Virus record (IMG/VR): IMGVR_UViG_3300042154_001807
Coordinates: 1-56,548 of that record
Strand: one strand, 5' to 3'
DNA length: 56,548 bases
Source of the DNA: a virus
Position 1 is the stretch's first letter; each line of letters opens with the position of its first letter. Made by a program: the position numbers and the translations under genes. The notes under the pieces were generated by a model. That model did no database searches. It saw only the letters and a list, made by a program, of their open reading frames with translations, and was not told the DNA's origin. Below, in pieces: positions 33,753 to 50,302 of the stretch.

Positions 33753-33753
33753 C

Positions 33754-35112: not shown

Positions 35113-35154
35113 TCCCTAACACAGACCGAACTACTAACACTAACGAAACACAAT

Positions 35155-35346: not shown

Positions 35347-35412
35347 ACAACAAACAGACTGTAACGCGCTAATTTTAACACAACCAAACCGAACCAAACC
35401 AAACAACACAAT

Positions 35413-35832: not shown

Positions 35833-35851
35833 TCTCTAACCACCAACTACT

Positions 35852-36088: not shown

Positions 36089-36351
36089 ACAGACACCTTA
36101 TGTATCTTCCTATGAACACCACCAGTGAGTTCCAGAACCAGTTCCAAAGCATGCTCAAGACAGCGATCTCCGACAAGGCACGCGAATTGGCTGCTGGAGG
36201 CACTACAGGGATCAGTATCGTCAACCTGAGCCAGATTGTCATGAACGACGGTCTGCGCTACGCTGACGGGGCACCTCGCGACCGCAGCGGGTATGTCAGA
36301 GAATTCGAGTCAGCAGTCCGCGCGGCAGATTTACCAATTGATATATTATGA
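36085..36351 (+). CDS. Small hypothetical protein, 88 aa
   Basis: The start overlapping the upstream stop (ATGA) is chosen; an in-frame ATG 9 codons later (MNTTSEFQNQF) is possible. The product has amphipathic helices (NQFQSMLKTAISDKARELAA). No family recognised. Confidence 0.5.
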   Translation: MNRHLMYLPMNTTSEFQNQFQSMLKTAISDKARELAAGGTTGISIVNLSQIVMNDGLRYADGAPRDRSGYVREFESAVRAADLPIDIL

Positions 36352-36530
36352 ACAAACACACACCGAAAAATTGGGTAGTAAACTACCGTGAACCGTCCTC
36401 CATTGGCAGGGCATTCTGGGAGATCACTGACGGCTTAGACAAGCCGATAGCATTTGTCACCGAACCGCAGCCAAGATCCCGCGAGGAGATGGCTGCTATA
36501 GCTAAAGCGAAAGGAGGGGCAGCGCTATGA
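36348..36530 (+). CDS. Small hypothetical protein, 60 aa
   Basis: ATGA-coupled on both sides. It contains NWVVNYREPSSIGRAFWEI and a basic, Ala-rich tail. No family recognised. Confidence 0.45.
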   Translation: MNKHTPKNWVVNYREPSSIGRAFWEITDGLDKPIAFVTEPQPRSREEMAAIAKAKGGAAL

Positions 36531-36724
36531 TCCTAGAACTAGCTATTTCAGGAGCCGCATTTGGGATTCTTGGAGCCTATTGTCTAGCAAAGGCAGCTTC
36601 GATGAAACCACCTAATCGAGGGATCCAAGTTGGCGGCGTTAAGCCGTTTGAATCGCGCAGTATTCAGAATAGGCTGGCACTTGGACTGCTGGCACAAAAA
36701 TCTAACAAAAACAAGAAAAAATAA
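36527..36724 (+). CDS. Small single-pass membrane protein, 65 aa
   Basis: Residues 1-25 (LELAISGAAFGILGAYCLAK) form a hydrophobic, Gly/Ala-rich membrane segment; the rest is basic. It is coupled to the upstream gene by ATGA. Function unknown; small membrane proteins in early arms sometimes act in superinfection exclusion (speculative). Confidence 0.5.
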   Translation: MILELAISGAAFGILGAYCLAKAASMKPPNRGIQVGGVKPFESRSIQNRLALGLLAQKSNKNKKK

Positions 36725-36725
36725 T

Positions 36726-37001
36726 ATGAGTGAAAAAGAAATAACAACAGACAACGGTGGGTCGGCGTTTCCAACAACTGGCTTCGATAGCCCAAATCAT
36801 GGGTGGCAACACGGGCAAGAAGGTATGACACTACGCGACTACTTCGCGGCGGCGGCTTTGACTGGAGAGGTTGGCGGCGAAGATTTTGGTGGTGAGCTAG
36901 CACAACTAAGAAGCCATGAAAACGCAAGGTTGATGGCGAGGAGAGCATATATGCTAGCGGACGCAATGCTGGCAGCAAGAAAGGAGGGCAACCAGTCATG
37001 A
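36726..37001 (+). CDS. Conserved small phage protein (MTLRDYFAA type), 91 aa
   Basis: It contains the signature GMTLRDYFAAAAL and ends with a RAYMLADAMLAAR helix, a pattern shared by many phage proteins of unknown function. The ATG at 36726 follows an A/T-rich leader. It overlaps the next gene by 4 bases. Confidence 0.65.
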   Translation: MSEKEITTDNGGSAFPTTGFDSPNHGWQHGQEGMTLRDYFAAAALTGEVGGEDFGGELAQLRSHENARLMARRAYMLADAMLAARKEGNQS

Positions 37002-37630
37002 GAAACGTAAACTGTCCGAAGACAAAAATCTACGTTCGCTGCGATGCGTTTGGTGGGTCTCCTGAAGAGTTTGAACCAGCGTGGTTGGTGTCCGTAAGAG
37101 CGATGCGTAACCGACCACTATGCTTCCAAGCATGGATTGAAAAGTATGCAGCGTGCTACGACAAGATTCCACCTCAGTGTATCTACTGGTATAAGCCTGA
37201 CGCAGACCACAAAGCGCTACCACTTCACAAGATACAGATGTGGGAGTGCCTCTCTGGATCTATCGAAATTTGGCGAAAGGATCAACTCAACGATGTTCCG
37301 ATGCTAGTGAACCTCGGAAAGGGTATGGATCCAATCGGAGGTCATTATTGGTTTACTATCGACTTCCTGCCCGAAGGACAGGCTCAAGGATTGTTTGACG
37401 TGGGCGACTCCGAGCTGCTCGAAGAACACAAAGAAGGTAATGTGATCAAACTGGACAACGGGCAGATTGCAATCTACCCAAACAACCGACTCAAATGGCT
37501 TCCAGTATCTCTGACAGGAAAAGAAGCACCGAGCGCAATTCCTCCGTGGGATGTGGCAACCAACGCCCAATGGGACGAGTGGTGGGCAGACTCAGACGAA
37601 ATCTTGGGGGACGCAAAATGGGCATATTAA
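36998..37630 (+). CDS. Hypothetical protein, Trp-rich C-terminus, 210 aa
   Basis: The first 60 residues form a compact region, the middle has GGHYWFTIDFLPEGQAQGLF, and the last 40 residues are rich in Trp (PPWDVATNAQWDEWWADSD). The segment GQIAIYPNNRLKWLP looks like a beta hairpin. No family recognised. It is ATGA-coupled to the upstream gene. Confidence 0.5.
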   Translation: MRNVNCPKTKIYVRCDAFGGSPEEFEPAWLVSVRAMRNRPLCFQAWIEKYAACYDKIPPQCIYWYKPDADHKALPLHKIQMWECLSGSIEIWRKDQLNDVPMLVNLGKGMDPIGGHYWFTIDFLPEGQAQGLFDVGDSELLEEHKEGNVIKLDNGQIAIYPNNRLKWLPVSLTGKEAPSAIPPWDVATNAQWDEWWADSDEILGDAKWAY

Positions 37631-37635
37631 AAATT

Positions 37636-38388
37636 ATGAACGCAACATACGGACTAGAATTATTCGAACTCGCACTCCGCAAAGAGACCGAGTCAATGAC
37701 CGAGGCAGAGAGAGCGGTATACGCTCAGCTGTCCGAACACCCAGTCACTCAGAAGCAGATAGCTGAGAGTGAGCGCTGGATAGGCACACACCCTTGGCAT
37801 GATGGATACGAGTCGGACACGACTACCAGAGCTGTTAGGCAGATAGTTCAGGATCTCAGGACCAAGCACAAGGTGCCTGTGCTGTCAGACCGTCGTGGCT
37901 ACTTTTTCAGTAACGACGAAGAGCAGCGTAAGGCATTTCTCGAGAGGCATGTCCGCAGTGCGACAGCGTCGATGAAGACATCGATCGAGACATACAATTC
38001 GATGAAGCACATCGTCGGAGAGCATGCATTTTTTGAATCGATGTTAGAACTCATAAACCGTGAAGACAACAGCCAAGCACAGGAAAGCCCAGCGTTGCCT
38101 GATGCGGGATGTTCGGACACACCGAGAACAGATGCTAAAATGTTTCCCGCATGGGCATGGGACACGCACACAATGGAATACGTGCCTCACGGCATCGGAT
38201 TTCCTGCCGAGGATGCCCGTAAATTAGAGCGCGAACTAGCAGCAGTCACCGAGCAGCGGGACACGCTGGCAGAGGCACTCCGAAAACTAGCTGATTGCGA
38301 TTGGGTAATTACACTGCCAGATCGGATGGACGCAGTAAGAACTATCGCCAACGAAGCCCTCCAATCCATAACCCCGAACGAACTATGA
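37636..38388 (+). CDS. Winged-helix-like protein with TEQRD coiled-coil tail, 250 aa
   Basis: The ATG at 37636 lies 5 bases after the upstream stop in the usual AAATTATG context; an alternative at 37618 would overlap. Residues 35-90 (SEHPVTQKQIAESERWIG ... TTRAVRQIVQDLRTKHKVP) resemble a winged helix. A linker with TPRTDA leads to a coiled coil with ARKLERELAAVTEQRD, a module reused in the following genes. It may be a DNA-binding regulator (inference). Confidence 0.55.
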   Translation: MNATYGLELFELALRKETESMTEAERAVYAQLSEHPVTQKQIAESERWIGTHPWHDGYESDTTTRAVRQIVQDLRTKHKVPVLSDRRGYFFSNDEEQRKAFLERHVRSATASMKTSIETYNSMKHIVGEHAFFESMLELINREDNSQAQESPALPDAGCSDTPRTDAKMFPAWAWDTHTMEYVPHGIGFPAEDARKLERELAAVTEQRDTLAEALRKLADCDWVITLPDRMDAVRTIANEALQSITPNEL

Positions 38389-38795
38389 ACACAGACACAC
38401 CGAAAATAATACAATTACTAATGTCACCGAATGACTCCGTATGGCAAGGCGTGTTGCTTGGTCTTGGAGATGATGGAGTTACATATCATTGCCAAGGGGA
38501 TACATGGCAACCTTACATACCTCCGTTGAATCCACAAGATAAAGCAGCCGAGCTTGCCTCCTTCACCGAGCAGCGGGACGAAGCGCGAATTGAATTAGAG
38601 AAATACACAACTGACAGCGAAGACGATGCGCTTTATAACGTGCGAAGATTGCGTAAAGAACTAACCGCCGTCACCGAGCAGCGGGACGAAGCGCGTCGCC
38701 TTGCCGAGAAATACCGCCACTTATCATGCGACAGCCTAGAGGAAGCCGATGAAACGCTGCTGCCTTGGGAAATAACAACCCCGAACGAACTATGA
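38385..38795 (+). CDS. Hypothetical protein with two TEQRDEAR coiled-coil units, 136 aa
   Basis: Residues 1-60 are a compact region with two Trp (GLGDDGVTYHCQGDTWQPYI). Two copies of the TEQRDEAR module follow; at DNA level they share an exact 25-base stretch (38563-38587 and 38671-38695). The start overlaps the upstream stop (ATGA). Confidence 0.5.
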   Translation: MNTDTPKIIQLLMSPNDSVWQGVLLGLGDDGVTYHCQGDTWQPYIPPLNPQDKAAELASFTEQRDEARIELEKYTTDSEDDALYNVRRLRKELTAVTEQRDEARRLAEKYRHLSCDSLEEADETLLPWEITTPNEL

Positions 38796-38974
38796 ACACA
38801 CCAACCGACTCCGAGGCGTTGCCTCTCACGACTTGTTCGTCTTGTTTGAATTGGGAGCCACGCCAGAACAGCGGCATTGGTGACGGATACTGCCAGATCT
38901 TCGATAAATTCACCGATCCTGACCACGGCAAACGCTGCACCGCATTTGAGCCGAACGCACAAGCAAAGCCATGA
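38792..38974 (+). CDS. Small Cys-rich (zinc-knuckle-like) protein, 60 aa
   Basis: The Cys pattern C-S-S-C ... C ... C with GDGYCQIFDKFTDPDHG and a terminal CTAFEP suggests a small metal-binding fold like those in phage 'nin' region proteins. Its first 50 bases are repeated at 47499-47548 (45 of 50 identical). Confidence 0.5.
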   Translation: MNTPTDSEALPLTTCSSCLNWEPRQNSGIGDGYCQIFDKFTDPDHGKRCTAFEPNAQAKP

Positions 38975-39333
38975 GCCATTGTGAAAACATCGACGGAAAG
39001 TGCGGAGCGTCGTGGTGTGACTGCGACTATCAGCGGCGTAAAAAGTCAGTTGGATCATTGGCTTCTGCGCCTTGTTCGCGGTTGCGGATACCTCGCCACC
39101 TGCTCGAACTGCGCATTCGCAACGCCATAGCCGACAAGGAAATGGTAACGGCGATGGCAAACCGTGACCTGCAATGCGGGGACGGGTGGCGGTGCGACTA
39201 TGCCGAGTGGCATCGTGAAGTCTCAAAGGAGATCGAGGAACTATTCATTCTTTCCGCGAACAGCCAAGCACAGGCACGCCCAGCGTTGCCTGATGCGGAA
39301 TGTTCGGAACAACCAACAAACGAAACAAAATGA
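38971..39333 (+). CDS. Hypothetical Cys-rich protein, 120 aa
   Basis: The N-terminus carries four Cys residues (C-E-N-I-D-G-K-C-G-A-S-W-C-D-C) and the middle has a basic stretch. The C-terminus (SQAQARPALPDAECSE) duplicates a stretch of the gene near 38.07 kb. ATGA-coupled on both sides. Confidence 0.45.
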   Translation: MSHCENIDGKCGASWCDCDYQRRKKSVGSLASAPCSRLRIPRHLLELRIRNAIADKEMVTAMANRDLQCGDGWRCDYAEWHREVSKEIEELFILSANSQAQARPALPDAECSEQPTNETK

Positions 39334-39689
39334 ACGACACACCGACACCGAGGACGGATGCTGAACACGCTCAATTTCCGATGGGAGGATTTACGTTAGA
39401 CTTTGCCAGAAAACTTGAACGCGAGCTTGCCGCCGCACGGGAGGAATTAGCCGAACTAAAGGCGGAATACGGAACGTGGTGGGCGCAGAAACGCATCGCA
39501 ATTGATGAGCTAAAGGAAGTCACCGAGCAGCGAGACAGGCTGGCTGAGGAGTTGAAAAATATCAAATGTGCTTTTTGCGGGGAAACGCAACAAACAGAAA
39601 ATGAAAAAGCATATTGCCAAGAGTTTAGCAATACACTAGGTGAGTTACCAACTATGGCTATGTGGCTACTAACTAAAAGGAAGCCATGA
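39330..39689 (+). CDS. Coiled-coil protein with TPRTDA/TEQRD modules, 119 aa
   Basis: It opens with TPTPRTDAEHAQFPMGG and continues as a coiled coil (ARKLERELAAAREELAELKA; EVTEQRDRLAEELKN), then a CAFC pair. These modules are shared with the genes at 37.6 and 38.4 kb, so it looks assembled from duplicated pieces. Function unknown. Confidence 0.5.
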   Translation: MNDTPTPRTDAEHAQFPMGGFTLDFARKLERELAAAREELAELKAEYGTWWAQKRIAIDELKEVTEQRDRLAEELKNIKCAFCGETQQTENEKAYCQEFSNTLGELPTMAMWLLTKRKP

Positions 39690-39730
39690 ACCTAGAACTC
39701 TGGCAAATCGTCGGCAATCAAGGAGGTGAT
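39686..39730 (+). CDS. Possible 14-aa leader ORF
   Basis: An ATGA-coupled frame of 14 codons (MNLELWQIVGNQRR) ends with its TGA inside the perfect Shine-Dalgarno element that follows. It may only deliver ribosomes. Translation is uncertain. Confidence 0.3.
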
Positions 39731-39732
39731 CG
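39721..39732 (+). promoter_or_regulatory. Perfect 12-base Shine-Dalgarno
   Basis: AAGGAGGTGATC is exactly complementary to the conserved 3' end of 16S rRNA and lies one base before an ATG, with the GGAGG core 6 bases from it. It is the only strong Shine-Dalgarno I found. Confidence 0.8.
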
Positions 39733-39733
39733 A

Positions 39734-39799
39734 TGAGCGACCAAAGCATAAAACTGTTAGAAAAGATCCTCGACAAGGCAAAATCTCTAACGAAATAGA
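39734..39799 (+). CDS. 21-aa microprotein with perfect Shine-Dalgarno
   Basis: The product is MSDQSIKLLEKILDKAKSLT plus Lys: a single amphipathic, Lys/Leu-rich helix. The extreme Shine-Dalgarno suggests either very high translation or that the site itself binds ribosomes. No family recognised. Confidence 0.45.
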
Positions 39800-39840
39800 A
39801 CTTTCTTTCGTTGTAGAATATAGGATTTTGAAAATACTTG

Positions 39841-39868
39841 TTTACAACGGAAGCGTTTTTGTTATGTT
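39841..39868 (+). promoter_or_regulatory. Early/middle promoter copy 2
   Basis: TTTACA, a 16-base spacer and TATGTT. The spacer matches copies near 34.85 and 41.8 kb around a GGAAG block, and the upstream TAGAATATAG is shared with the third copy. Confidence 0.7.
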
Positions 39869-39874
39869 TCGTTT

Positions 39875-39889
39875 GTCGCCGCGAGCGAC
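39875..39889 (+). ncRNA. 5'-end hairpin, copy 2
   Basis: GTCGC and GCGAC pair around the loop CGCGA, the same loop and spacing (7 bases after the -10) as the copy at 34879, with a compensatory change in one pair. Confidence 0.7.
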
Positions 39890-39915
39890 ACCAACAACAC
39901 TAATCAAAACACATT

Positions 39916-40164
39916 ATGAAAACTACAATCATCCACGTCGATCACCGCAAAGTTGAAGTCGAAATCAGAAACGCTCCAAACGGTCGCAAGCTTGTAATCG
40001 CTATTCGCGATGCGGGTGCATCGGAAATGTGGGATCAAAAACCTAATCCGATTGGCGCATATATACGCCAGCAGTGGAATAAAACTTACATCTACAAGCG
40101 TTGCGCGGGATGGGTATCCCTAAGCGCATCGCAAATTGGATTTCTTGACGAAATTACAGTCTAA
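39916..40164 (+). CDS. Small early protein, 82 aa
   Basis: It begins MKTTIIHVDHRKVEVEIRNA, a beta-hairpin-like start, and ends GWVSLSASQIGFLDEITV. No family recognised. It is the first gene after promoter copy 2. Confidence 0.55.
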   Translation: MKTTIIHVDHRKVEVEIRNAPNGRKLVIAIRDAGASEMWDQKPNPIGAYIRQQWNKTYIYKRCAGWVSLSASQIGFLDEITV

Positions 40165-40216
40165 CTAATTCAAAAACAGGGGCGCGGCTGAATACGCGCA
40201 ACCGAAACACAAAATT

Positions 40217-40462
40217 ATGACAATCACAAACGCAATTAAAAAAGTTACCAAGGCAGGTTTCAAAGTCACACAAAATGGGAAACGCTATTCAGCAAAAAAA
40301 GATGGCATAAATTATCTTGTTGAGTTTTCACAAAACGGCAGTGAAGACATAATCACCTGCATCGGAGTGCGTCACAAAAACGATAATAGCGATAGTCAAT
40401 GCGACTATTGCGCCACGATTTTTACTGATAACCTATCGCAAGCAATCAGACTTGCTCACTAA
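40217..40462 (+). CDS. Small hypothetical protein, 81 aa
   Basis: The N-terminus (NAIKKVTKAGFKVTQNGKRY) forms a helix-strand unit seen in small phage proteins; a C-D-Y-C pair follows. Function unknown. Confidence 0.5.
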   Translation: MTITNAIKKVTKAGFKVTQNGKRYSAKKDGINYLVEFSQNGSEDIITCIGVRHKNDNSDSQCDYCATIFTDNLSQAIRLAH

Positions 40463-40470
40463 CTAAAAAT

Positions 40471-40683
40471 ATGGAACCAGAAGCCGCCGCCGCGAGAATA
40501 TGCTGCGAGTATAATCTCCTAGCAGAAGACTCGGATATTAAGACTATCTGCATGAGCGCTGACGACCTGCACAGTCTAGCGCTTGACTGGCAGCGCAAGA
40601 CCAAAATCCTTCAGGATCTGTTAGACCACGTAGCTGGAATTCAATCTAACGTAAACGACTTAGCCAAGATTTTAAAATCATGA
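40471..40683 (+). CDS. Small helical protein, 70 aa
   Basis: The C-terminal half is a coiled coil (LALDWQRKTKILQDLLDHVA). It overlaps the next gene by 4 bases. No family recognised. Confidence 0.45.
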   Translation: MEPEAAAARICCEYNLLAEDSDIKTICMSADDLHSLALDWQRKTKILQDLLDHVAGIQSNVNDLAKILKS

Positions 40684-41279
40684 ACGACACCAAGACAAAC
40701 GAGGAAATGATCAGGCTCCTTCTCACACCGATCAGCGAACTGAGCAAAGACGAAGTGTCATTCTTCGTCGGGAACAGGGAGCTTCTAAGAAATCTGAGGA
40801 ATTCTCCAGAGTATTATCGGGGTCTTGCTGCGGATCTCAGGACGAAGTCGGTAATCCCTAACGGGATGCGTCTCACTGGTCTCACAGAACACGTCACGCA
40901 TGCCAGTGGTAAACGCAAGACAGTATGCACGTCGGCTGCTCTGGCATTCTTCAACGTGCCACCAAGCGCATACCACTACAGTGGTCATGCAGAGCAAGAC
41001 AACGCAGTCCTGCGCAGGCACGGCTGGAGTGCCCGTAGCCGTAAATCAGCGTTCAAGGTGAAGGGTGGCAAGGCATCGCTCGCCAGCGTCATCAGGGGCA
41101 TCAAGGATCGAGGAGAAGACGGGCACTACAAGCTCAGCATCAGACTGACCAAGGGTCAGGGATACCACTGCATCGTGATCGACTCCAAAGGCAAGATCGT
41201 AGTCGACACTGCGAGCAGCGCCACCACACCTCGCGCCACCGTGCGTGACATTTACATCATTCAACGAATAAAAAAATAA
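40680..41279 (+). CDS. Putative papain-like cysteine peptidase, 199 aa
   Basis: A Cys at the start of a helix (KTVCTSAALAFFN, Cys83), a His in a strand (GYHCIVID, His163) and an Asp in the next strand (KIVVDTAS, Asp176) are arranged as in papain-like/NlpC-type enzymes. An Asn or Asp after the His strand is the usual third residue. A substrate cannot be predicted; a role in cleaving a host or phage protein is speculative. Confidence 0.45.
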   Translation: MNDTKTNEEMIRLLLTPISELSKDEVSFFVGNRELLRNLRNSPEYYRGLAADLRTKSVIPNGMRLTGLTEHVTHASGKRKTVCTSAALAFFNVPPSAYHYSGHAEQDNAVLRRHGWSARSRKSAFKVKGGKASLASVIRGIKDRGEDGHYKLSIRLTKGQGYHCIVIDSKGKIVVDTASSATTPRATVRDIYIIQRIKK

Positions 41280-41281
41280 TT

Positions 41282-41521
41282 ATGAACACACGACCAATAC
41301 ACGAAATAGCGTCCGAGATTTATCAGGACTGGGGAAGCAAAGTGAACTTCGCGGCGAAGCCATACCTGAAGGCGATGACCTTCTTGGACAAGCCGACGGA
41401 CAAATACATCCACGACAGCGGCAGAGACATCGTCCTGCGCTTCCTGTGCAATGCCACGACCTACCGTGGAGAAACCGCACGACGGGTGAAGGCAGAACTT
41501 AAAAAACTGTTAGGGATTTAA
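41282..41521 (+). CDS. Conserved small phage protein, 79 aa
   Basis: The pattern AKPYLKAMTFLD ... IVLRFLCNATTYRGETARRVKAELKKLL recurs in phages of several bacterial groups. Its function is not known to me. It follows the peptidase-like gene by 2 bases. Confidence 0.6.
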   Translation: MNTRPIHEIASEIYQDWGSKVNFAAKPYLKAMTFLDKPTDKYIHDSGRDIVLRFLCNATTYRGETARRVKAELKKLLGI

Positions 41522-41522
41522 C

Positions 41523-41753
41523 ATGAAAACCAAGCCGATGAGAATCAAAGCTTTCTGGTCACTTTACGGTGTCCGCATCCACCGTGCAGGTCGCAACCTA
41601 GACCTCGGTGGAGGCGATGGGGCTTATCACGTAGCAGCTTTTAATTTACTAAATCTGTTAGAGAGAGAGTGCTACACTGGCGAGATTGAATTTTACGGAA
41701 ATTGTTCAAAAGAAGTGGAAAAAGAATTCAACGAATACAAGTCAATCGGCTGA
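41523..41753 (+). CDS. Small hypothetical protein, 76 aa
   Basis: Contains RIKAFWSLYGVRIHRAGRNL and an acidic C-terminus. No family recognised. It ends about 40 bases before promoter copy 3. Confidence 0.45.
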   Translation: MKTKPMRIKAFWSLYGVRIHRAGRNLDLGGGDGAYHVAAFNLLNLLERECYTGEIEFYGNCSKEVEKEFNEYKSIG

Positions 41754-41793
41754 AACCATTTTAGAATATAGCGAAAATAAATGAAAATAATTA

Positions 41794-41821
41794 TTTACAT
41801 CGGAAGTATTTTCGCTATGAT
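41794..41821 (+). promoter_or_regulatory. Early/middle promoter copy 3
   Basis: TTTACA, a 16-base spacer with the conserved GGAAGTATTTTCGC block, and a near-consensus TATGAT. The predicted start begins GTC, like the other two copies, but no hairpin follows. Confidence 0.75.
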
Positions 41822-41843
41822 GAGCGCGTCAACCAACAACATT

Positions 41844-42239
41844 ATGAACACACCTACGAATCCAACAGCAGCACAAATTGCACAATACACAGCAACCGTC
41901 ACCCAAGTGGGCAAAAAATGGGTGCATACTTTGATTGACGAAAATGGACAAGTGATTGCAAAGCGTAGCACAGACAACTGCACACCATACCGTGCAGCGT
42001 GTGTTACAGTTGTCACTCTTAATTCTCGCATTCACTCCCTCAAAAGAGAGATTGTAAAATCTCGTTCAAAGTCATTCATTGAGTCCTGCAAACACGACAT
42101 TCAAGAAGCACAGGCAGATATTGCAGCAGGTGTTGATGGCAACCAGTATTTTGGTTTTATTGTTTCATGGACAAGAGGTCTTTCTGGGTCCGCCAGTTAT
42201 GGATCAATCATTGCCAGACTGGTGCCATGCAAAGCATAA
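41844..42239 (+). CDS. Hypothetical protein, 131 aa
   Basis: The ATG downstream of the predicted transcription start is chosen over in-frame codons upstream, which would lie inside the promoter. The product is Ala/Thr-rich at first, then a coiled coil (LNSRIHSLKREIVKSRSKSF). It sits between promoter copy 3 and a terminator, so it is probably transcribed as a single-gene unit. Confidence 0.6.
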   Translation: MNTPTNPTAAQIAQYTATVTQVGKKWVHTLIDENGQVIAKRSTDNCTPYRAACVTVVTLNSRIHSLKREIVKSRSKSFIESCKHDIQEAQADIAAGVDGNQYFGFIVSWTRGLSGSASYGSIIARLVPCKA

Positions 42240-42262
42240 ATCAACTAACATACCAGCACTCA

Positions 42263-42290
42263 CCTCACCGATTGAATTCGGTGGGGTTTT
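42263..42290 (+). terminator. Intrinsic terminator
   Basis: CCTCACCGA pairs with TCGGTGGGG (9 bp, one G-T) around a 6-base loop, followed by TTTT. Confidence 0.7.
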
Positions 42291-42301
42291 CTGGGCGTAA
42301 C

Positions 42302-42538
42302 ATGAAAATACTAATTGCCAACATCCCGATCGGTCTTCGCCTTGCTCTCAAGGCTGGAGAATTCGCAGCAATCAGACTCAGCTCTGGAGCAAACAACAGT
42401 GTCTTGATCAGAGACGGTCGAGCCTACCAGTTCGAGAACACGATGCGCAGCAAGATGCCGTCTTTGCCTGCGACATCGCTACCAGTAAAAGTAAAAAGAG
42501 TCTCAGAAAAATCTATCACATTCGACCTATTGCCATGA
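42302..42538 (+). CDS. Small hypothetical protein, 78 aa
   Basis: Compact, beta-rich product (ANIPIGLRLALKAGEFAAIR; SLPVKVKRVSEKSITF). The ATG at 42302, just after the terminator, fits the gene border. Function unknown. Confidence 0.5.
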   Translation: MKILIANIPIGLRLALKAGEFAAIRLSSGANNSVLIRDGRAYQFENTMRSKMPSLPATSLPVKVKRVSEKSITFDLLP

Positions 42539-42852
42539 ACATCCTATCATCAAAACGTCGTGGCGTAAATGCCGCCCTGAACGCATCTCCCAGCCTGTCT
42601 GGAAACATGCGTCACGGGTCAACCACCTCTGGGCTACAGGAGCTTACACGCATCCTTGCAGCGCACGGTTTCAGCCTTGACATTGTCCGAGGAGATACCA
42701 TCATCGGTGACCGAGGGATTGTCACCCTGCCATTCAGACCGACCTCGGACGACTCTGCCACGGAGCTGCCACAAGTCACTAATTCATTCGCGGTCTTTTC
42801 TTGGACGAAGCTCGACGAAGATCGCACTGAAGTCCTCGCATACCTCTCCTAA
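42535..42852 (+). CDS. Hypothetical protein, 105 aa
   Basis: Basic N-terminus (SSKRRGVNAALNAS), then a helix (LQELTRILAAHGFSLDI) and strands. ATGA-coupled to the upstream gene. No family recognised. Confidence 0.5.
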   Translation: MNILSSKRRGVNAALNASPSLSGNMRHGSTTSGLQELTRILAAHGFSLDIVRGDTIIGDRGIVTLPFRPTSDDSATELPQVTNSFAVFSWTKLDEDRTEVLAYLS

Positions 42853-42866
42853 CAACTAAAATTAAT

Positions 42867-43043
42867 ATGAAAATAACACAGCAATACGCAGACAGAACAG
42901 TCGGGATCATAGCCGCCCAGTCATACCTTGACGAGCGGTTCGCCCCGACCAATAGCAAGCTCGCCAGCGCCTTCATCACGGGTTTAGGCATTGGAATCAT
43001 CATCGCGACCATCATCGGTCTGCTCGTCATCCAACCCAGCTAA
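42867..43043 (+). CDS. Small membrane protein, 58 aa
   Basis: I read this short frame directly. Its C-terminal half contains a Gly/Ile-rich hydrophobic segment (FITGLGIGIIIATIIGLLVI) typical of a single transmembrane helix. Its TAA overlaps the next ATG (TAATG), so the two are coupled. Confidence 0.6.
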   Translation: MKITQQYADRTVGIIAAQSYLDERFAPTNSKLASAFITGLGIGIIIATIIGLLVIQPS

Positions 43044-43219
43044 TGAAACCTAACAAAAACGCACAGGCACTCGGCGCTCTTGGAAAAGGCATCAAGAAGA
43101 CCATGACCAAGGCAGCGCTTGAGCAGCGCAAGGCTGCTTCCAAGAAGCCAAGGACCACCACTCCAACTAAATCAACAATTGCTCGCAGAGCAAAACTCGG
43201 AATCAAAAACAAATTATGA
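43043..43219 (+). CDS. Small Lys/Arg-rich protein, 58 aa
   Basis: A directly read 59-codon frame coupled on both sides (TAATG, ATGA). It begins MKPNKNAQALGALGKGIKKT, then Lys/Arg/Thr-rich sequence; the composition suggests nucleic acid binding. No family recognised. Confidence 0.55.
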   Translation: MKPNKNAQALGALGKGIKKTMTKAALEQRKAASKKPRTTTPTKSTIARRAKLGIKNKL

Positions 43220-43440
43220 ACGACATCATCGAACACCACACCAAGCAGGAGTCTGCGGCTCAGTCAGAGCTTCAGCAATTGAAAGATCGCGAGTTCAGTT
43301 TAAAGCTGAAGCTGCGGTTTCAGAAAGCTCCAGTCCAGTATCATAGCCGCCACGGTCGAACCCGTGCAGCTATACAACTAAGAATCTCCCAGCACGGTGC
43401 GCTCGCCAGCTACTGGGCAAACAAAATGAAGCGAGCCTAA
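43216..43440 (+). CDS. Small helical protein, 74 aa
   Basis: The N-terminal half is a coiled coil (AAQSELQQLKDREFSLKLKL); the rest is basic. ATGA-coupled to the upstream gene; the structured RNA element follows directly. Confidence 0.5.
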   Translation: MNDIIEHHTKQESAAQSELQQLKDREFSLKLKLRFQKAPVQYHSRHGRTRAAIQLRISQHGALASYWANKMKRA

Positions 43441-43445
43441 AATTT

Positions 43446-43543
43446 TCTCTCGCCAGTGCTGAGGCGGCGACTCAGGATAAAGCCCTTGAATGGGACAGAG
43501 TGCCTGCCAGCGATGGCTTAAAAACATGACAACTGGCGAGAGA
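43446..43543 (+). ncRNA. Structured RNA element with 12-bp closing helix
   Basis: TCTCTCGCCAGT (43446-43457) pairs perfectly with ACTGGCGAGAGA (43532-43543). Inside are CTGAG-(7)-CTCAG, a short CCC/GGG helix, and GCCA-GCGA-TGGC with a GNRA tetraloop, giving a multibranch junction. It lies 17 bases before the ATG of the coiled-coil recombination gene and has no T-tract. I matched it to no known riboswitch or ribozyme. Confidence 0.7.
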
Positions 43544-43560
43544 TTCAAATCAAATAAATT

Positions 43561-44676
43561 ATGAACAAAACATTACCACCACAAGAGGTCGAGGTGCTAC
43601 CCACGCTCGAGATGTCGGAAGTCCCACAGGAGTTCCAAGTGAAGATTCGCGCCAGTTTCGGAGACCTGATGCACCAAGCTGATGTGCTTGTTACCAAGGC
43701 TCGAGAAATCGCAGCAATGGGAGAGTCTACCGATCAGGAGAAGCAGGCACGGGAGACCCGTCTGGCGCTCGTCAAGGTGCGGACTAGTGCCGAGAAAACG
43801 CATAAGGACATGAAGCAAGACATCCTTGTGCAAGGTCGTGCGATCGACGGGGCGAAGAACATCGTGATCGCTGCTACCCAGCCGTCCGAGAAGGACATGA
43901 AAGCGATCGAGGATCGTGCCGAGCTACGTGCCCAAGAAGAGCGCGACCGTCTGCACGCTGATCGATACGCTGAGCTGAACCAGTTCACGACCGCATACAA
44001 CACACTCAGCCTCGGTCGCCTGACCGCTGAGGAGTATGCAGCGATGCTTGACAACAGCAAGCTGGCACACGAAGCCAGAATTGCCCGTGAAGAGCGCGAG
44101 AAGGCAGAGCGCGAAGCCGCAGCCAAGGCTGAGGAGGAAGAGCGCCAGCGCATTGCTGCCGAGCGTGTAGAGGCTGAGAAGAAAGCAGCAGCAGAGCGTG
44201 CTGAGCTTGAGGCTAAGGCAAAGCGTGAGGAGGCTGCTCGCAAAGAAGCTGAAGCAGTGATCGCAAAGCAGCAAGCAGAGGCTGAAACCGCTCGCAAAGC
44301 TGCTGCTGCGGCACTAGCCAAGCAGCAGGCAGAGGCTGAGGCAAAGCTCGCAGCAGAGCGTAAGTCTGCGGCAGCGGCTCTTGAGGCTGCGGCAGCGGCG
44401 ATTGAGAAAGCAAAAGCTGAGGCAGCACGGCTTGCAAAGATCGAATCCGATCGATTGGCTGCTGCTCGCGCCGATTCCGAGGCTAAGGAACAGGCTGAGA
44501 AAAAAGCAGCCATTGCTCCTGACAAAGTCAAAATCGCTGAATACGCGAAAGAGATTTTAGGGGTCAGGTTGCCTACTGGCAGCACCGACGATGGGAAAGC
44601 AGCTTGCGCTAAAATCAGCAAGGTCATCGAAACAGCACTCGCTGAAATCCGAACCATTTACACAACACTAAAATGA
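43561..44676 (+). CDS. DUF1351-like coiled-coil recombination-associated protein, 371 aa
   Basis: Residues 65-125 (RLALVKVRTSAEKTHKDMKQ, then a helix with AATQPSEKDMKAIEDRAE) resemble DUF1351-type proteins found beside phage recombinases. Residues 150-320 form a long Ala/Glu/Lys coiled coil. The C-terminus has IAEYAKEILGVRLPTG. It is the first gene of the recombination module, preceded by the structured RNA and overlapping the ATPase gene by 4 bases. Confidence 0.6.
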   Translation: MNKTLPPQEVEVLPTLEMSEVPQEFQVKIRASFGDLMHQADVLVTKAREIAAMGESTDQEKQARETRLALVKVRTSAEKTHKDMKQDILVQGRAIDGAKNIVIAATQPSEKDMKAIEDRAELRAQEERDRLHADRYAELNQFTTAYNTLSLGRLTAEEYAAMLDNSKLAHEARIAREEREKAEREAAAKAEEEERQRIAAERVEAEKKAAAERAELEAKAKREEAARKEAEAVIAKQQAEAETARKAAAAALAKQQAEAEAKLAAERKSAAAALEAAAAAIEKAKAEAARLAKIESDRLAAARADSEAKEQAEKKAAIAPDKVKIAEYAKEILGVRLPTGSTDDGKAACAKISKVIETALAEIRTIYTTLK

Positions 44677-45554
44677 TACAAGAAGCACAAAGAAAAGGAG
44701 CCAAGGGAGTTTTCGGATTCGCTGGTCAATCGGGCACTGGGAAAACCTTTAGCGCACTCATGTTCGCGTATGGTCTCGCTGGCTGCGTCGGCAAGCGCAT
44801 GGGATTTCTTGACACCGAGAACCGTCGAGGAAGTCTCTACGCTGACATCCTTCCAGATGGCGACCGATTCATGGCAATGGACATGACCGCTCCGTTCCAT
44901 CCTCGCAAATATGTCGAGGCTATTGCGGAGTTCGAAAAAGCTGGAATCGACACCCTTGTCATCGACTCTATCTCTCACGAATGGGAGGGTCAAGGAGGCT
45001 GCTCCGACATCGCTCTCTACGGGGACTACACCGACGCTCAGTTCTCTGACGGCACATGGTGCGCGAAAGAAGCCAAGCGTGCCCAGTGGCAGGTTGCTAA
45101 GCGCGAGAACCAGAAGTTCGTGAACGCACTGCTACAGTCGAAGATGAACATCGTCGTCTGCCTCCGAGCCAAGGAGAAGTCCAAGGTCGAGCAAGACGGT
45201 GGTGTCAGCTCATTGGGTATCCAGCCGATCTGCGAGAAGAATTTCTCGTTCGAGGCTACCACTCTCTTGCTCATGCAGGACGAGGGTTCGTCTCAGAAGG
45301 TGCTGCGCTGCCCTTCGGCGCTCAGACCCTACCTCGGACGTGCCGATGACTACATCACGGTGCAGGACGGTCTTGCTGTGCGCGAGTGGCTACAGGGAGG
45401 CACTCCTATGACAGCACTCGACAGACTGCGTGCGCAGCTCCTCACCAGCGCTGGGGAAGCCAGAGAGGCACTGTGGAAGTCTCTGACCAAGGATCAGAAG
45501 AAAACTCTAACCGACGACGGCACAGTCGCTCGTTTGAAAGGTGAGACGGTATAA
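44673..45554 (+). CDS. RecA-like ATPase (AAA_24/Sak4-like), 293 aa
   Basis: A Walker A GQSGTGKT (18-25) and a Walker B DTLVIDSISHEW (about 92-103) mark a RecA-type ATPase. The layout matches phage Sak4-like single-strand annealing or recombination ATPases, usually next to an SSB-like partner and an exonuclease, as here. The C-terminal 60 residues are helical. It is ATGA-coupled to the DUF1351-like gene. Confidence 0.7.
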   Translation: MIQEAQRKGAKGVFGFAGQSGTGKTFSALMFAYGLAGCVGKRMGFLDTENRRGSLYADILPDGDRFMAMDMTAPFHPRKYVEAIAEFEKAGIDTLVIDSISHEWEGQGGCSDIALYGDYTDAQFSDGTWCAKEAKRAQWQVAKRENQKFVNALLQSKMNIVVCLRAKEKSKVEQDGGVSSLGIQPICEKNFSFEATTLLLMQDEGSSQKVLRCPSALRPYLGRADDYITVQDGLAVREWLQGGTPMTALDRLRAQLLTSAGEAREALWKSLTKDQKKTLTDDGTVARLKGETV

Positions 45555-45557
45555 TTT

Positions 45558-45785
45558 ATGACTGACGAAGAAATTGAATTCTTTCAGCGTGAGAGCGCTG
45601 AAAGAAAGCGGATCAAAAAAATGGTTGATGACCTAAACGAAAGCGAGAAAGAGCGCAAGTCGTGGAGCAAATCACAAGAGCATAAAGCACCGTCAATAAC
45701 ACGATCCTATGCTGGCGGCAAAACATCGAAGGTCAAAGGGACTGGAAACTTTGACAGAGAGCAAATCAGATACGAAGGAAAATAA
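45558..45785 (+). CDS. Small charged protein, 75 aa
   Basis: Strongly charged helix (IEFFQRESAERKRIKKMVDD) and a basic, Gly-rich tail. It sits between ATPase and exonuclease; function unknown. Confidence 0.5.
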   Translation: MTDEEIEFFQRESAERKRIKKMVDDLNESEKERKSWSKSQEHKAPSITRSYAGGKTSKVKGTGNFDREQIRYEGK

Positions 45786-45789
45786 TAAC

Positions 45790-46701
45790 ATGCAACCACA
45801 AATCATATACAACTACCCGAGAAAAAATTACTTCGCCCCTCATACTGGCGACCACAAGACACTGCGTGTCAGTAAGTCAATGCTTACCGACTTCGTGCCT
45901 AACCCAGCTGCGTGGCTGCTCATGCCTGTGCGCGAATACACAAAGGCGATGAAGTTCGGAAACCTCGTCGACTGCTTAGCACTGACCCCGACCGAGTTCG
46001 AGAACGAATACACAATCCTCCCATCGCACTACCCGTGCAAGCCGACCAAAATAGATCCTCGGGTAGAGAAACCGTGGAACGCTAATTCAAACTACTGCAA
46101 AGCTTTCGAAGCAGGTGTCGAGCTGGACGGCAAGCAAGCTGTGAAGCAAAGCGACTACCAGCAGGCACTCCAAGCGCTGACCATGCTCATGGCATTCAAG
46201 CCATACTCTGAGATGATGGAAGAGGCATCCACACAGGTTGCTATGTTCGGAGAGATTGTCGAAGAGGGATCTATGACCTTGGCTAAGGCGATGATTGACA
46301 TCGTGCCTAACAAAGGGAAGTGGAAGAGCTGCCTCGTTGACATGAAGACTACCGCTGAGATGTCGGAGCATCACTTTGCCAAGACAGTCGCGAAGTTTGG
46401 ATACCACCGTCAGGCTGCTCTGTATCTCGACCTGTGGAACGCATTGTCTGGTGAGAACCGAGACACGTTCTACATCGTATGGGTTCACAGTAAGGCACCT
46501 TACGAAGTGGCTATGAGACCGATCAGCGCCTCAGCAATTGCCGAGGGTCGTCGCTGGTATCGCAGCGCTCTTCGTCTCTGGAACGAATGCGTTACAACGG
46601 GAGTGTTCCCATCACCATGGGATGATATTGAGACCCCGATAGATTTGCCAGCGTTTGTCGAGTTGACATCGTTGGATGACGAAGAAGAAGAAGAAAACTA
46701 A
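45790..46701 (+). CDS. RecE-like PD-(D/E)xK exonuclease, 303 aa
   Basis: KFGNLVDCLALTP, then MIDIVPNKGKWKSCLVDMKT with catalytic Asp170, Asp184 and Lys186 and a downstream YHRQAALYLDLW helix match the RecE C-terminal/PDDEXK family. The enzyme resects double-stranded ends for annealing. I chose the ATG at 45790 over the longer frame because it fits the gap after the upstream gene. The acidic C-terminus (DEEEEEN) is unusual and may contact partner proteins. Confidence 0.75.
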   Translation: MQPQIIYNYPRKNYFAPHTGDHKTLRVSKSMLTDFVPNPAAWLLMPVREYTKAMKFGNLVDCLALTPTEFENEYTILPSHYPCKPTKIDPRVEKPWNANSNYCKAFEAGVELDGKQAVKQSDYQQALQALTMLMAFKPYSEMMEEASTQVAMFGEIVEEGSMTLAKAMIDIVPNKGKWKSCLVDMKTTAEMSEHHFAKTVAKFGYHRQAALYLDLWNALSGENRDTFYIVWVHSKAPYEVAMRPISASAIAEGRRWYRSALRLWNECVTTGVFPSPWDDIETPIDLPAFVELTSLDDEEEEEN

Positions 46702-46726
46702 TACCAATAATTAACTAAATAGAAAA

Positions 46727-47173
46727 ATGAGTAAAATATCACTAAACGATAAGTTAGCAGACCAAGAGGGTGGAGATTATATTCTCGTCCCTGTAGGCTA
46801 CCACGCATTCACAGTTGAAAGCGTAGGAGACGTAGAACTGTCATCCAACGGAAATGAGTTTCTAACCGTTGAGCTGACGTGCGGAGGAACCAAGGTGAAG
46901 GACAAAATTTTCTTAGGTGAGAAATCACTGTGGAGACTTGCCCGATTCTTGAAATCTTTGAAGGGAGGAGAGAGTCTTGGAGACATCGAGTTCGTGCCTG
47001 AAAAGTGCAGGTGGATTGTCGGCAAATCTGGGCAGCTTTTGATCGAGCATGAGAGTCCGACCGAAGGCAAGTATGCAGGCAAGAAATTTGCTCGCGTGAA
47101 GACATACGAGTGGGGGAAAGTGGTCGCTGATCTTGATGAGGATCCAGCAGATGACGACGACGTGCCGTTCTGA
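46727..47173 (+). CDS. DUF669-like / SSB-type protein, 148 aa
   Basis: The beta-rich body (residues 15-125) fits DUF669-type single-strand-binding proteins found in phage recombination operons. The C-terminus ends in an acidic stretch closing with DDDDVPF, almost identical to the SSB tail that recruits partner proteins. It follows the exonuclease by 25 bases. An SSB role is family knowledge plus the visible tip. Confidence 0.7.
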   Translation: MSKISLNDKLADQEGGDYILVPVGYHAFTVESVGDVELSSNGNEFLTVELTCGGTKVKDKIFLGEKSLWRLARFLKSLKGGESLGDIEFVPEKCRWIVGKSGQLLIEHESPTEGKYAGKKFARVKTYEWGKVVADLDEDPADDDDVPF

Positions 47174-47184
47174 TCAATAAACGC

Positions 47185-47286
47185 TGGCATACCGTTTGTA
47201 TGCCACCACACTCGCGCTCATTGCATTGAGGGCATCCTTAAACTAGATACTGGGTGAGCGACCTGAACAGTGGGTGCGAGTGTGGT
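47185..47286 (+). ncRNA. Second structured RNA element
   Basis: A perfect 8-bp hairpin (TGGCATAC-CGTTT-GTATGCCA) is followed directly by a long helix: ACCACACTCGC (47205-47215) with GCGAGTGTGGT (47276-47286); the first A is shared. Inside are CTCA-(6)-TGAG and GGT-(5)-ACC helices. Size and layout resemble the element at 43.45 kb, but the sequences differ. Confidence 0.65.
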
Positions 47287-47292
47287 AATAAA

Positions 47293-47365
47293 ACTATCAT
47301 AGCTCAGAGTAGAGCAGTGGGCTTATAACCCATTGGACAGTGAATTAACGACTCACTTGGTAGCT
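47293..47365 (+). tRNA. tRNA-like, Ile anticodon UAU (imperfect)
   Basis: The D arm (GCTCAGAGTAGAGC) and anticodon arm (GTGGG-CTTATAA-CCCAT) are tRNA-like, giving anticodon UAU. The acceptor pairs over 6 of 7 positions. The T stem AGTGA/TCACT encloses a 9-base loop without the usual TTC, and no CCA is encoded. It could be a real but unusual tRNA, a decayed one, or a tRNA mimic. The remaining 47366-47418 holds one small hairpin. Confidence 0.5.
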
Positions 47366-47418
47366 GTAATAAAATCCACACGCCTTGCCGACGTAATCGG
47401 CTAACAATTTACAAAATT

Positions 47419-47496
47419 ATGAACAAAGAAAAACAAGAAGATGCAATTGCGATTGCAACGGGATGGGAGAACGCCTCTGTGGAGGCACGCCAATAA
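47419..47496 (+). CDS. Possible 25-aa small protein
   Basis: The frame begins in the usual AAAATTATG context (MNKEKQEDAIAIATGWENAS) and stops 5 bases before the next ATG. Supporting evidence is the start context only. Confidence 0.35.
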   Translation: MNKEKQEDAIAIATGWENASVEARQ

Positions 47497-47501
47497 CGAC
47501 T

Positions 47502-47789
47502 ATGAATACACCAACCAACTCCGAGGCGTTGCCTCCCACAAATTGTTCTCGGCGTTGCTCGCCGCAGCTATCTAGTTCCGAAACTACGGCATACCGCGCG
47601 GTGGTCGTTGATGCCGATCAAGACGTAATCTGGACGCGAGACGCTCAAAACAACGTCATCGGCTACACGATTACTAACCCAAAGCCCGTCGCGGGTATGA
47701 GGCACATTCTGGACGATGGGAGTCTCTCTGCGCTAGATGTCCAAATTCATTGCGAGAACAGCCAAGATCAATCAGCACGCAGTGACTGA
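47502..47789 (+). CDS. Hypothetical protein with duplicated N-terminus, 95 aa
   Basis: The first 16 residues (MNTPTNSEALPPTNCS) duplicate the start of the Cys-rich gene at 38.79 kb, at 45 of 50 bases. The rest is unrelated (VVVDADQDVIWTRDAQNNVI), so a shared 5' segment has been joined to a new body. Function unknown. Confidence 0.5.
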   Translation: MNTPTNSEALPPTNCSRRCSPQLSSSETTAYRAVVVDADQDVIWTRDAQNNVIGYTITNPKPVAGMRHILDDGSLSALDVQIHCENSQDQSARSD

Positions 47790-47818
47790 TTGCATCGACA
47801 TGTTCGATAAAAATTATT

Positions 47819-49270
47819 ATGAAACCAAGACCATACCAACAGGAAGGCATCGACCATATACGACGAGCATATGGAAAGAAAATCCGCAAAGTCTTATACG
47901 TCCTCCCGACTGGAGGAGGCAAGACCGTCACGTTCTCATGCATCGCTGCTGGTGCAGCTGTGAAAGGAACTCGGACATGGATCGTTGCGCACCGTCGCGA
48001 ACTAGTGAACCAAGCGAGTAAGACTCTAACATCTTTCGGGATTAATCACGGGATCATGGTCCCTAAGTCAAAGCAGTGGACAGAATCACCAGTGCAGGTC
48101 TGTTCTCTCCAAACCCTTGTCGGTCGCATGTCGAAGGAGCAAGCTCCAAACTTTATCGTCTACGACGAAGCCCATCACGCTACGTCTGGAAGCTATGACA
48201 AGATCATGAAGCATTTCCCCGACGCTAAAATTCTAGGGGTAACAGCGACACCGTGCCGAACTGATGGCAAAGGTCTCGGTGATGTTTTTGAAGAACTGAT
48301 CATCGGTCCTTCTACTGGAGATCTAACAAATGATGGATACCTTTCTTCGGCTAGGTATTTCTGTAGCCCACGAATTGCCGATTTGTCTGGCATAGCGAAG
48401 CGTGGCGGAGACTACGAACGAGAAGCGCTTGCCGAAGCGATGGATCAGAAGCTCATCACTGGTGACGCTATCGAGCATTACAAGCGTCACTGCGACGGTG
48501 TTCCGATGATTGTGTTCTGCGTGTCTGTAGAGCATGCCAAGCACGTCGCTTCCGAGTATATCATTGCAGGATACCGAGCCACCTACGTCGACGGTCAACT
48601 ATCGGACGAAGAGCGTGCGTATCGACTCACGGGTCTCGGTGACGGAACCTTCCAAGTCGTCACCTCCTGCGACTTAATTGGTGAAGGGTTAGACATCCCC
48701 AACGTGGTCGCAGCACAACTCCTAAGACCGACGGAGTCGACAGGTTTGCACATGCAACAGATAGGAAGACCACTCAGACCAGTCTACGCAGCAGGCATGC
48801 CTCTGGACTCGGCGGAAGACAGGCTGGCAGCGATCGCGAACGGGGTGAAACCATACTCTGTGATTCTCGACCACGTAGGCAACTGCGGGTCAGTGGTCAA
48901 TGGTCAGTGGATGACCAAGCACGGGTTCGCGACAAGCCCGAGGGAGTGGTCTCTGGACGGCAAGAAAAAGAAGCCAAAGCTCGAGCCAGACGTTCTTATC
49001 AAGTCGTGCCCAGACTGCTTCAGTGTCCATGCCCCAGCCACCTGCTGTCCGTTCTGTGGGCACGTCTACCAAGTCGTCAAGTCACGCACCGTTGAAATAT
49101 CCAAGGGTGAATTGATAGAAGTCAAGGCACAGGAAGCACTGGCAAAAAAACAGGAAGAAAAAAAAGTTTTTACTCTGAAAGATCTCACAGAACTCGGTCG
49201 TAGCAGGGGATATAAAAATCCAGAGTTCTGGGCTAGAATGAAAATCAAAGGAAGAAAAAATATACGATGA
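47819..49270 (+). CDS. DEAD/DEAH-box superfamily 2 helicase with zinc ribbon, 483 aa
   Basis: Motif I PTGGGKT (30-36), motif II DEAH (116-119), motif III VTATP, motif V region CDLIGEGLDIPN and motif VI QQIGRPLRP (about 313-321) are all present. A C-P-D-C ... C-C-P-F-C zinc ribbon follows (about 397-420), then a basic tail. It probably unwinds or remodels DNA in phage replication or recombination. It overlaps the next gene by 4 bases. Confidence 0.85.
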   Translation: MKPRPYQQEGIDHIRRAYGKKIRKVLYVLPTGGGKTVTFSCIAAGAAVKGTRTWIVAHRRELVNQASKTLTSFGINHGIMVPKSKQWTESPVQVCSLQTLVGRMSKEQAPNFIVYDEAHHATSGSYDKIMKHFPDAKILGVTATPCRTDGKGLGDVFEELIIGPSTGDLTNDGYLSSARYFCSPRIADLSGIAKRGGDYEREALAEAMDQKLITGDAIEHYKRHCDGVPMIVFCVSVEHAKHVASEYIIAGYRATYVDGQLSDEERAYRLTGLGDGTFQVVTSCDLIGEGLDIPNVVAAQLLRPTESTGLHMQQIGRPLRPVYAAGMPLDSAEDRLAAIANGVKPYSVILDHVGNCGSVVNGQWMTKHGFATSPREWSLDGKKKKPKLEPDVLIKSCPDCFSVHAPATCCPFCGHVYQVVKSRTVEISKGELIEVKAQEALAKKQEEKKVFTLKDLTELGRSRGYKNPEFWARMKIKGRKNIR

Positions 49271-49653
49271 CACCATACATATCGACACATTGCAACAAGG
49301 GTAACCTCATAATCACAGACGACGAAGTTGTCTCACTGTGGACACCTTCGCCAGCTGAGCTTCAATGCTTAATAGCTGGAGGAAGCTTGGGAGTTAAAAT
49401 ATCAAAGGCAGAACAAGAGGTGTTTACTCTGATGCCAGACGATCAATCATACTATACTCAGGCTAAGTCGCCAGAGCATGCGATGGAGCTTCTGCCAATC
49501 TCAATGAGGCATTCATCCGATCTCACTAACATAATTAAAAAAGCGTTAGTTTTTCTAGCAGAGAAATTACCAAACGAAGAAAGAACCACTCTCATTTTAA
49601 ATGAGTTCTTGGATCTAACAGCTCAACCAAACATCATAACCACACATGAATAA
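49267..49653 (+). CDS. Hypothetical protein, 128 aa
   Basis: Mixed alpha/beta; the C-terminal half is helical (LTNIIKKALVFLAEKLPNEE). Coupled on both sides to replication genes. No family recognised. Confidence 0.5.
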   Translation: MTPYISTHCNKGNLIITDDEVVSLWTPSPAELQCLIAGGSLGVKISKAEQEVFTLMPDDQSYYTQAKSPEHAMELLPISMRHSSDLTNIIKKALVFLAEKLPNEERTTLILNEFLDLTAQPNIITTHE

Positions 49654-49936
49654 AATCGAATACACAATCAAGTTCTACCGCAACTCTCTCGCCGAGGGAA
49701 TGGTTCCGAGAGAAGCCGTAATGCTATGCGCTGTCGCGCAGTTAACATCAACAGTCAAAGAATGCACCAGTCATGAGGTGACTGAGATTACTGGCGACTC
49801 ACATCCATCGGTGACCTTGAGACGGATGACTTGGTGGCTGAATATCAGAGAGACGAAGAATGCGAAAAACAAAAAAGTATTCTACTACTCGCTCAAGGAA
49901 GACGGTGTGAAAAAACTTCGCAAGCTGATATTATGA
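49646..49936 (+). CDS. Winged-helix-like protein, 96 aa
   Basis: Residues 22-75 (REAVMLCAVAQLTSTVKECT ... SVTLRRMTWWLNIRETKNAK) suggest a helix-turn-helix with a wing, followed by a beta hairpin (KVFYYSLKEDG). It may be a small DNA-binding regulator. It overlaps both neighbours. Confidence 0.5.
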   Translation: MNKIEYTIKFYRNSLAEGMVPREAVMLCAVAQLTSTVKECTSHEVTEITGDSHPSVTLRRMTWWLNIRETKNAKNKKVFYYSLKEDGVKKLRKLIL

Positions 49937-50298
49937 GCCTAACAGAAAAAAATATACAGAACGAGATCCGACTGCACCTCAGTAAAGCAGGAGCTTTGTC
50001 ACTTCGGTATCAGGTCGGTCTGTTTTACTCTCCTGCTGGAGACCCAGTGAAGATAGGGGAGGTAGGAGCCAGCGACCTCATCTGCTGCGTGCCAATACTC
50101 ATTACTCAGGAAATGGTCGGGAAGACATTAGGAGTATTTGCAGCAATTGAGACGAAAAAGATAAACGACAAAACTGCAAAAGGCAGGAAAGAGTCGCAGG
50201 ATAAATTCATCAACCGAGTCCAAGCCCTCGGAGGAATTGCTGGGATAGCACGAAGCACTGAAGACGTAGAAAAATTAATATCAGAAAAGAAAAAATAA
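49933..50298 (+). CDS. VRR-NUC domain nuclease, 121 aa
   Basis: The PD-(D/E)xK core is visible: a G-x-S/A-D unit (GASDLI, Asp48), AAIETKK (Glu73, Lys75) and a downstream Gln in SQDKFI, with the characteristic 'VQALGGIAGIARSTEDV' ending. Stand-alone VRR-NUC proteins are common in phages and act as structure-specific or nicking nucleases near replication genes. The ATGA overlap with the upstream gene fixes the start. Confidence 0.8.
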   Translation: MSLTEKNIQNEIRLHLSKAGALSLRYQVGLFYSPAGDPVKIGEVGASDLICCVPILITQEMVGKTLGVFAAIETKKINDKTAKGRKESQDKFINRVQALGGIAGIARSTEDVEKLISEKKK

Positions 50299-50302
50299 CC
50301 AA

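Follow-up and report, generated by a model that had tools for sequence, protein, structure and literature searches.

A perfect 12-bp helix in an early intergenic gap of an uncultured phage genome: a candidate intercistronic processing stem

Introduction

What might a 98-nt element closed by a perfect inverted repeat be doing just upstream of the recombination genes of an uncultured phage? The question is raised by positions 43446-43543 of the IMG/VR virus record IMGVR_UViG_3300042154_001807, whose 56,548 nucleotides are referred to here as the window. A preliminary description, made from the sequence alone, had called the element an unclassified multibranch RNA and had listed a riboswitch, a ribozyme, a processing site and a phage small RNA as possible functions.

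The two ends of the window (1-273 and 56276-56548) are repeats of each other with 97% identity, and an array of 72-nt repeats encoding a repetitive protein (55591-56094) adjoins the right end. A single 4818-codon ORF on the minus strand (11925-26381, 14.5 kb) takes up a quarter of the window; its product is probably a giant multi-domain protein, presumably akin to the polyvalent-type proteins. The first rightward early gene is preceded by an AT-rich region with TGATTGATTGG repeats (33690-33888), possibly an origin or promoter region, which contains a strong hairpin at 33788-33836 (z about -6 in a 110-nt window).

The gap and its neighbouring genes

Many genes of the region nearly touch or overlap by ATGA. 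The element fills most of a 120-nt gap, 43441-43560, between genes on the same strand. That gap is real, as had been described, but to call the rest of the operon gap-free was too strong; the early arm contains several gaps, of up to about 247 nt. The element is placed at the border between a set of small early genes (42867-43440), which have no database matches, and the recombination module, where the gene run encodes a 371-aa coiled-coil-like protein, a Sak4-like ATPase, a short ORF, a DUF3799/exonuclease VIII-type nuclease and an SSB-like protein. The features in and around the gap are:

43216-43440 (+), upstream small gene, 74 aa, without a match in Pfam or PHROG; a copy of CTCGCCAG lies in its 3' part
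43446-43457 (+), 5' arm of the outer helix, from inverted-repeat scan, fold and pair probabilities
43458-43531 (+), 74-nt interior, for which the centroid, the MFE structure and the three-hairpin model differ
43490-43564 (+), 24-codon ORF crossing the 3' half of the element and overlapping the next start by ATGA
43532-43543 (+), 3' arm of the outer helix, from the same three analyses
43544-43560 (+), A/T-rich linker of 17 nt, predicted to be unpaired, reaching the ATG of the next gene
43561-44676 (+), downstream gene, 371 aa with Ala/Glu/Lys repeats, apparently coiled-coil, with no Pfam or PHROG match
44673-45554 (+), AAA_24/Sak4-like recombination ATPase (phrog_1366; weak phrog_124)
45790-46701 (+), PDDEXK exonuclease (DUF3799; phrog_412, exonuclease VIII)

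No Shine-Dalgarno sequence was seen in the linker; read by eye, the start codons of the region are preceded by A-rich linkers without an evident one. The predicted fold leaves the downstream start codon outside the helix. The 24-codon ORF was rejected as a gene, its frame being shifted by a 1-nt deletion in the near relative described below, and is probably non-coding.

Fold of the element

The arms of the outer helix, TCTCTCGCCAGT and ACTGGCGAGAGA, form a perfect 12-bp inverted repeat with 74 nt between them; inverted-repeat scan and fold both recover the helix as first described, and the pair probability is about 1.0 across nearly all of its pairs. The minimum free energy of the 98 nt is -40.0 kcal/mol, as against -26.8 +/- 3.18 for 200 dinucleotide shuffles (z -4.15), none of which folded as well. 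The opposite strand folds almost equally well (z -3.45), as an inverted repeat would lead one to expect. A fold scan of the whole window, in 110-nt windows at 50-nt steps, never had the full element inside one window; that the top rows of that scan lack it is therefore uninformative.

The excess of structure sits in the outer helix, since the interior, folded by itself, does not stand out from its shuffles (z -0.65; 48 of the 200 do as well). The multibranch architecture with three smaller hairpins, proposed in the preliminary description, is not the favoured fold: it comes to -38.1 kcal/mol, 1.9 above the minimum, and the ensemble centroid is instead a bulged rod (43463-43508) inside the outer helix. 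The CCC/GGG hairpin has a pair probability of 0.79, CUGAG/CUCAG one of 0.21, and the hairpin with the supposed GNRA tetraloop one of about 0.06. With an interior that folds like its shuffles and a GNRA hairpin so improbable, the outer helix is the one robust structural statement that these models allow. An octamer of its 5' arm, CTCGCCAG (43449-43456), recurs 47 nt upstream, inside the preceding gene (43402-43409); this copy could compete for the 3' arm through an alternative 8-bp pairing.

Chance and placement

The window contains four perfect inverted repeats with arms of at least 12 bp and no more than 150 nt of loop, against a mean of 0.41 per shuffled window. At least one is present in 35 of 100 shuffled windows, so that a 12-bp helix by itself could be due to chance. 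That the element is no more than an inverted repeat arisen by chance in ordinary non-coding leader DNA, and functionless as RNA, is the most serious alternative, though an unlikely one; an unstructured interior is what it would lead one to expect. The weight of the case rests on placement in a gap and on the neighbouring cases, not on the helix alone. The element lies exactly in one of the few gaps, where a random 98-nt span would fall with a probability of about 0.016, and long helices are found in other gaps of the early arm, both of which argue against chance.

The early arm (33690-52600) has four perfect inverted repeats of at least 11 bp, three of them (41768-41818, 43446-43543 and 47205-47286) lying wholly in gaps, which make up 5.8% of the sequence, and the fourth (45579-45606) inside a gene. 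Under random placement P is about 7e-5 for three of four in gaps, an optimistic value because the gaps were drawn from the ORF lists after the data had been seen, with a later start picked for the ORF at 41781. Of the early-arm ORF starts examined, 43561 is alone in having a perfect arm of more than 8 bp that ends 5-30 nt upstream.

Conservation

The element is unchanged, 98 of 98 nt, in four IMG/VR contigs (L004-L007), counted here as one relative; three of the four, compared with one another, are 99.98-100% identical. The main aligned blocks of relative and window are 95.5-98.9% identical. Within the block that contains the element, substitutions amount to 1.1-1.9% in the closest genes, while the 120-nt gap has no substitution and a single deletion, which falls outside the element. 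At the local third-codon-position rate (21/565), zero changes in 98 nt has a P of about 0.024; 16% of the 98-nt stretches in the aligned block are likewise unchanged between the two genomes, which speaks for chance, as does the fact that the searches found no wider conservation.

All homologues found belong to one near-identical lineage, in which both arms of the helix are unchanged. Searches through five neighbouring or conserved genes -- those for the coiled-coil-like protein, the Sak4-like ATPase, the primase, a portal-like protein and the exonuclease -- recovered the gene order in that lineage only, and no distant relative sharing it. At 69 other ATPase loci (at most 49% identical), some of which carry exonuclease or helicase relatives, nothing matched the coiled-coil-like gene or the small upstream genes; a match in L012 was confined to the low-complexity part of the coiled-coil-like protein. 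A covariance model of the element matched none of 70 non-self loci (positive control L008), and a nucleotide search of a phage collection with the element gave nothing relevant, the one match being a 19-nt chance hit. A loop-motif scan of viral contigs returned 70 stretches, four of them the relatives. The follow-up covered the window, L004 and 66 others, 68 matches in all (L005-L007 being left out as copies of L004): among the 20 listed, all hairpins were present only in the window and L004, and in the remaining 48 the closing helix was of at most 7 bp.

Other structures in the early gaps

The two other gap-borne repeats of the early arm are:

41768-41818 (+), 12-bp A/T-rich helix in an earlier gap, overlapping the promoter-like repeat 41794-41821
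47205-47286 (+), 82-nt element with an 11-bp perfect helix and 19 pairs in the MFE structure (z -6.41), directly before a tRNA-like sequence

As modelled, the 82-nt element is structurally stronger than the one at 43446-43543. It is housed in the gap 47174-47420 and is unchanged in the near relative. Across the 254 nt of 47174-47427 there are 2 substitutions, compared with a rate of 4% in the preceding gene; the final 74 nt of that gene, too, are free of changes, and an identical block may therefore have been acquired by recombination. The tRNA-like sequence (47293-47365; Rfam 43.2 bits) has an odd T arm and a loop, CTTATAA, that suggests the anticodon UAU. A second tRNA-like sequence lies on the minus strand at 28422-28490 (Rfam 37.9 bits); ARAGORN reports neither of the two. 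The gap around the second also holds two strong hairpins, one at 28251-28298 and one, terminator-like by eye, at 28316-28347.

Early gaps house all three copies of a promoter-like repeat (34845-34872, 39841-39868 and 41794-41821), which has the form TTTACA or TTGATA, 16 nt, TATGNT, with spacers that resemble one another; there is no copy at 43446. A 5-bp hairpin with a CGNRA loop comes after two of the three. Hairpins of this kind, which are similar in size to lambda boxB, number only three in the window (34879-34893, 39875-39889 and 47387-47401), all intergenic and before an ATG; GTCAC/GTGAC versus GTCGC/GCGAC among them is a paired A-T/G-C change. Another leader hairpin, ACAGGGGCGCG..CGCGC, is found at 40176-40199 and in L007 from 30 and from 4384, preceding different genes; between window and relative its stem is constant, while the loop and the following gene vary.

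In the relative, the blocks 41847-42230 and 47427-47756, each right after a structured gap, are replaced by unrelated sequence: the genes after 41845 and 47419 differ and the gaps before them are kept. By sequence comparison this is cassette-like gene exchange. After the first exchanged gene lies a GC-rich stem of 8-10 bp followed by TTTTCT (42263-42292), which looks like a terminator in its predicted fold and is unlisted by terminator pattern scans.

These leaders bear on a further alternative, that the element is a cis-regulatory leader controlling how the recombination module is translated or transcribed, by serving for example as a protein-binding (autoregulatory) or antitermination site. 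Its position 17 nt before an ATG that lacks a Shine-Dalgarno sequence would suit such a role, as would the pairing offered by the upstream octamer copy and the small CGNRA hairpins before the ATG in other early leaders (34879, 39875, 47387). The element itself, however, has no such hairpin, its predicted fold does not enclose the start codon, no alternative terminator was seen and homologous leaders were not found; we regard this role as rather improbable.

Known RNA and DNA classes

Rfam covariance models run over the element gave no match at the gathering score, so that "unclassified" stands; up to E 10 there was a single chance-level match, to a snoRNA, at 15.5 bits against the 39 required. 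An intrinsic terminator was rejected, as it had been from the start for want of a T-tract: the arms enclose a 74-nt interior and are followed by TTCAAATC, which contains none, and terminator scans did not call the site. Also rejected was a mobile or miniature inverted-repeat element, the sequence being single-copy with no flanking direct repeat, by eye, beyond TT. No second copy was found in the genome record or, with a covariance model, in the window, and the element therefore does not form one family with 47205-47286.

A discrete small RNA, or an antisense RNA, freed from the operon could account for compact ends shut by a strong helix, and a weak promoter-like match, TGGGCA-18-TAAAAT, lies just upstream (43414-43443). 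That match, however, is 9/12, of a kind common here (38 found against 20.0 +/- 4.9 in shuffles), and is unlike the three phage promoter-like repeats; there is no terminator, and no strong complementary target was found in the window, where the best inverted match listed for the interior reaches 72% over 29 nt, one of 623 pairs. Such an RNA is very unlikely. PMC2864571 names the c4 antisense RNA and further Rfam motifs associated with phages (RF01695 and others); they too are structured non-coding RNAs in phage operons, but the element matches no such covariance model. A riboswitch or self-cleaving ribozyme, for which only structure and a position upstream of a gene could be cited, is most improbable, given no Rfam match, an interior z of -0.65, no definable conserved core and recombination genes downstream.

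A candidate processing stem

The explanation that we put first, while holding it tentatively, is that the element is an intercistronic stem that processes or stabilises mRNA, a candidate RNase III-like site by analogy with phage T7. Among the functions originally listed the processing site is thus retained, while riboswitch, ribozyme and discrete small RNA gained no positive support. A long rightward early mRNA would be transcribed through the element, and the 12-bp helix, perhaps extended inward by the bulged rod, would form in the message where the small upstream genes give way to the recombination module. The stem might then be cut by a double-strand-specific host RNase of the RNase III type, or be left uncut as a barrier to exonucleases; by either route the recombination cistrons would become a separate, stable mRNA, with the start codon in the unpaired A/T-rich leader 17 nt after the stem.

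The processing reading is supported by a strong outer helix whose element fills most of a non-coding gap between two gene groups and has neither a T-tract nor a mobile-element or coding signature, by the gap positions of three of the four early-arm repeats, one of them immediately before a tRNA-like sequence, a place at which one would expect a processing cut, and by retention of all 98 nt in the relative. Against it stand the frequency of such helices in shuffled windows, the share of equally unchanged 98-nt stretches in the aligned block and the length of the helix. The lower limit for an RNase III substrate is about one helical turn; 12 perfect bp, with a possible bulged inner rod, are at that limit and short for a site of this kind.

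In T7, RNase III sites split the early mRNA into units. RNase III is described as acting at several places in lambda, T7 and T3 RNA (PMC5371410). Like those sites, the element is a stem-loop in an intergenic gap of what would be a polycistronic phage message, which it would split; it differs in the length of its perfect helix, only 12 bp. In bacterial operons, intercistronic or 3'-end hairpins stabilise mRNA, and a GC-containing stem between cistrons can shield the upstream RNA and so give two gene groups different levels. The element is likewise a GC-containing stem between cistrons, though single-copy and not part of a repeated family.

The PeSL cassettes of T4-like phages are reportedly the subject of papers by Arbiol (2010) and Comeau (2014). 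These promoter-stem-loop cassettes, in which an early promoter is joined to a stem-loop, occur in T4-like phages (PMC4503421). Other early gaps here resemble them in joining a promoter-like repeat and a small hairpin beside genes swapped in the relative, whereas the element at 43446-43543 has no such repeat, only the weak 9/12 match, and its neighbouring genes are unswapped.

It seems distinctly unlikely that the element belongs to a new structured RNA class of this uncultured phage lineage, with stems before early gene cassettes that would set the cut or anchor points of the message, and that in some gaps stay fixed while the following gene is exchanged. Nothing yet marks it as a new kind of RNA, and its likeliest function is an ordinary one. 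If it is a processing or stability stem, this uncultured phage would be using a means known from T7 to give its recombination genes a level separate from that of the small early genes, which would be useful to annotation and no surprise. Stems at cassette borders, if they prove to be a wider pattern, would be of greater consequence, since they might parallel the promoter-stem-loop cassettes of T4.
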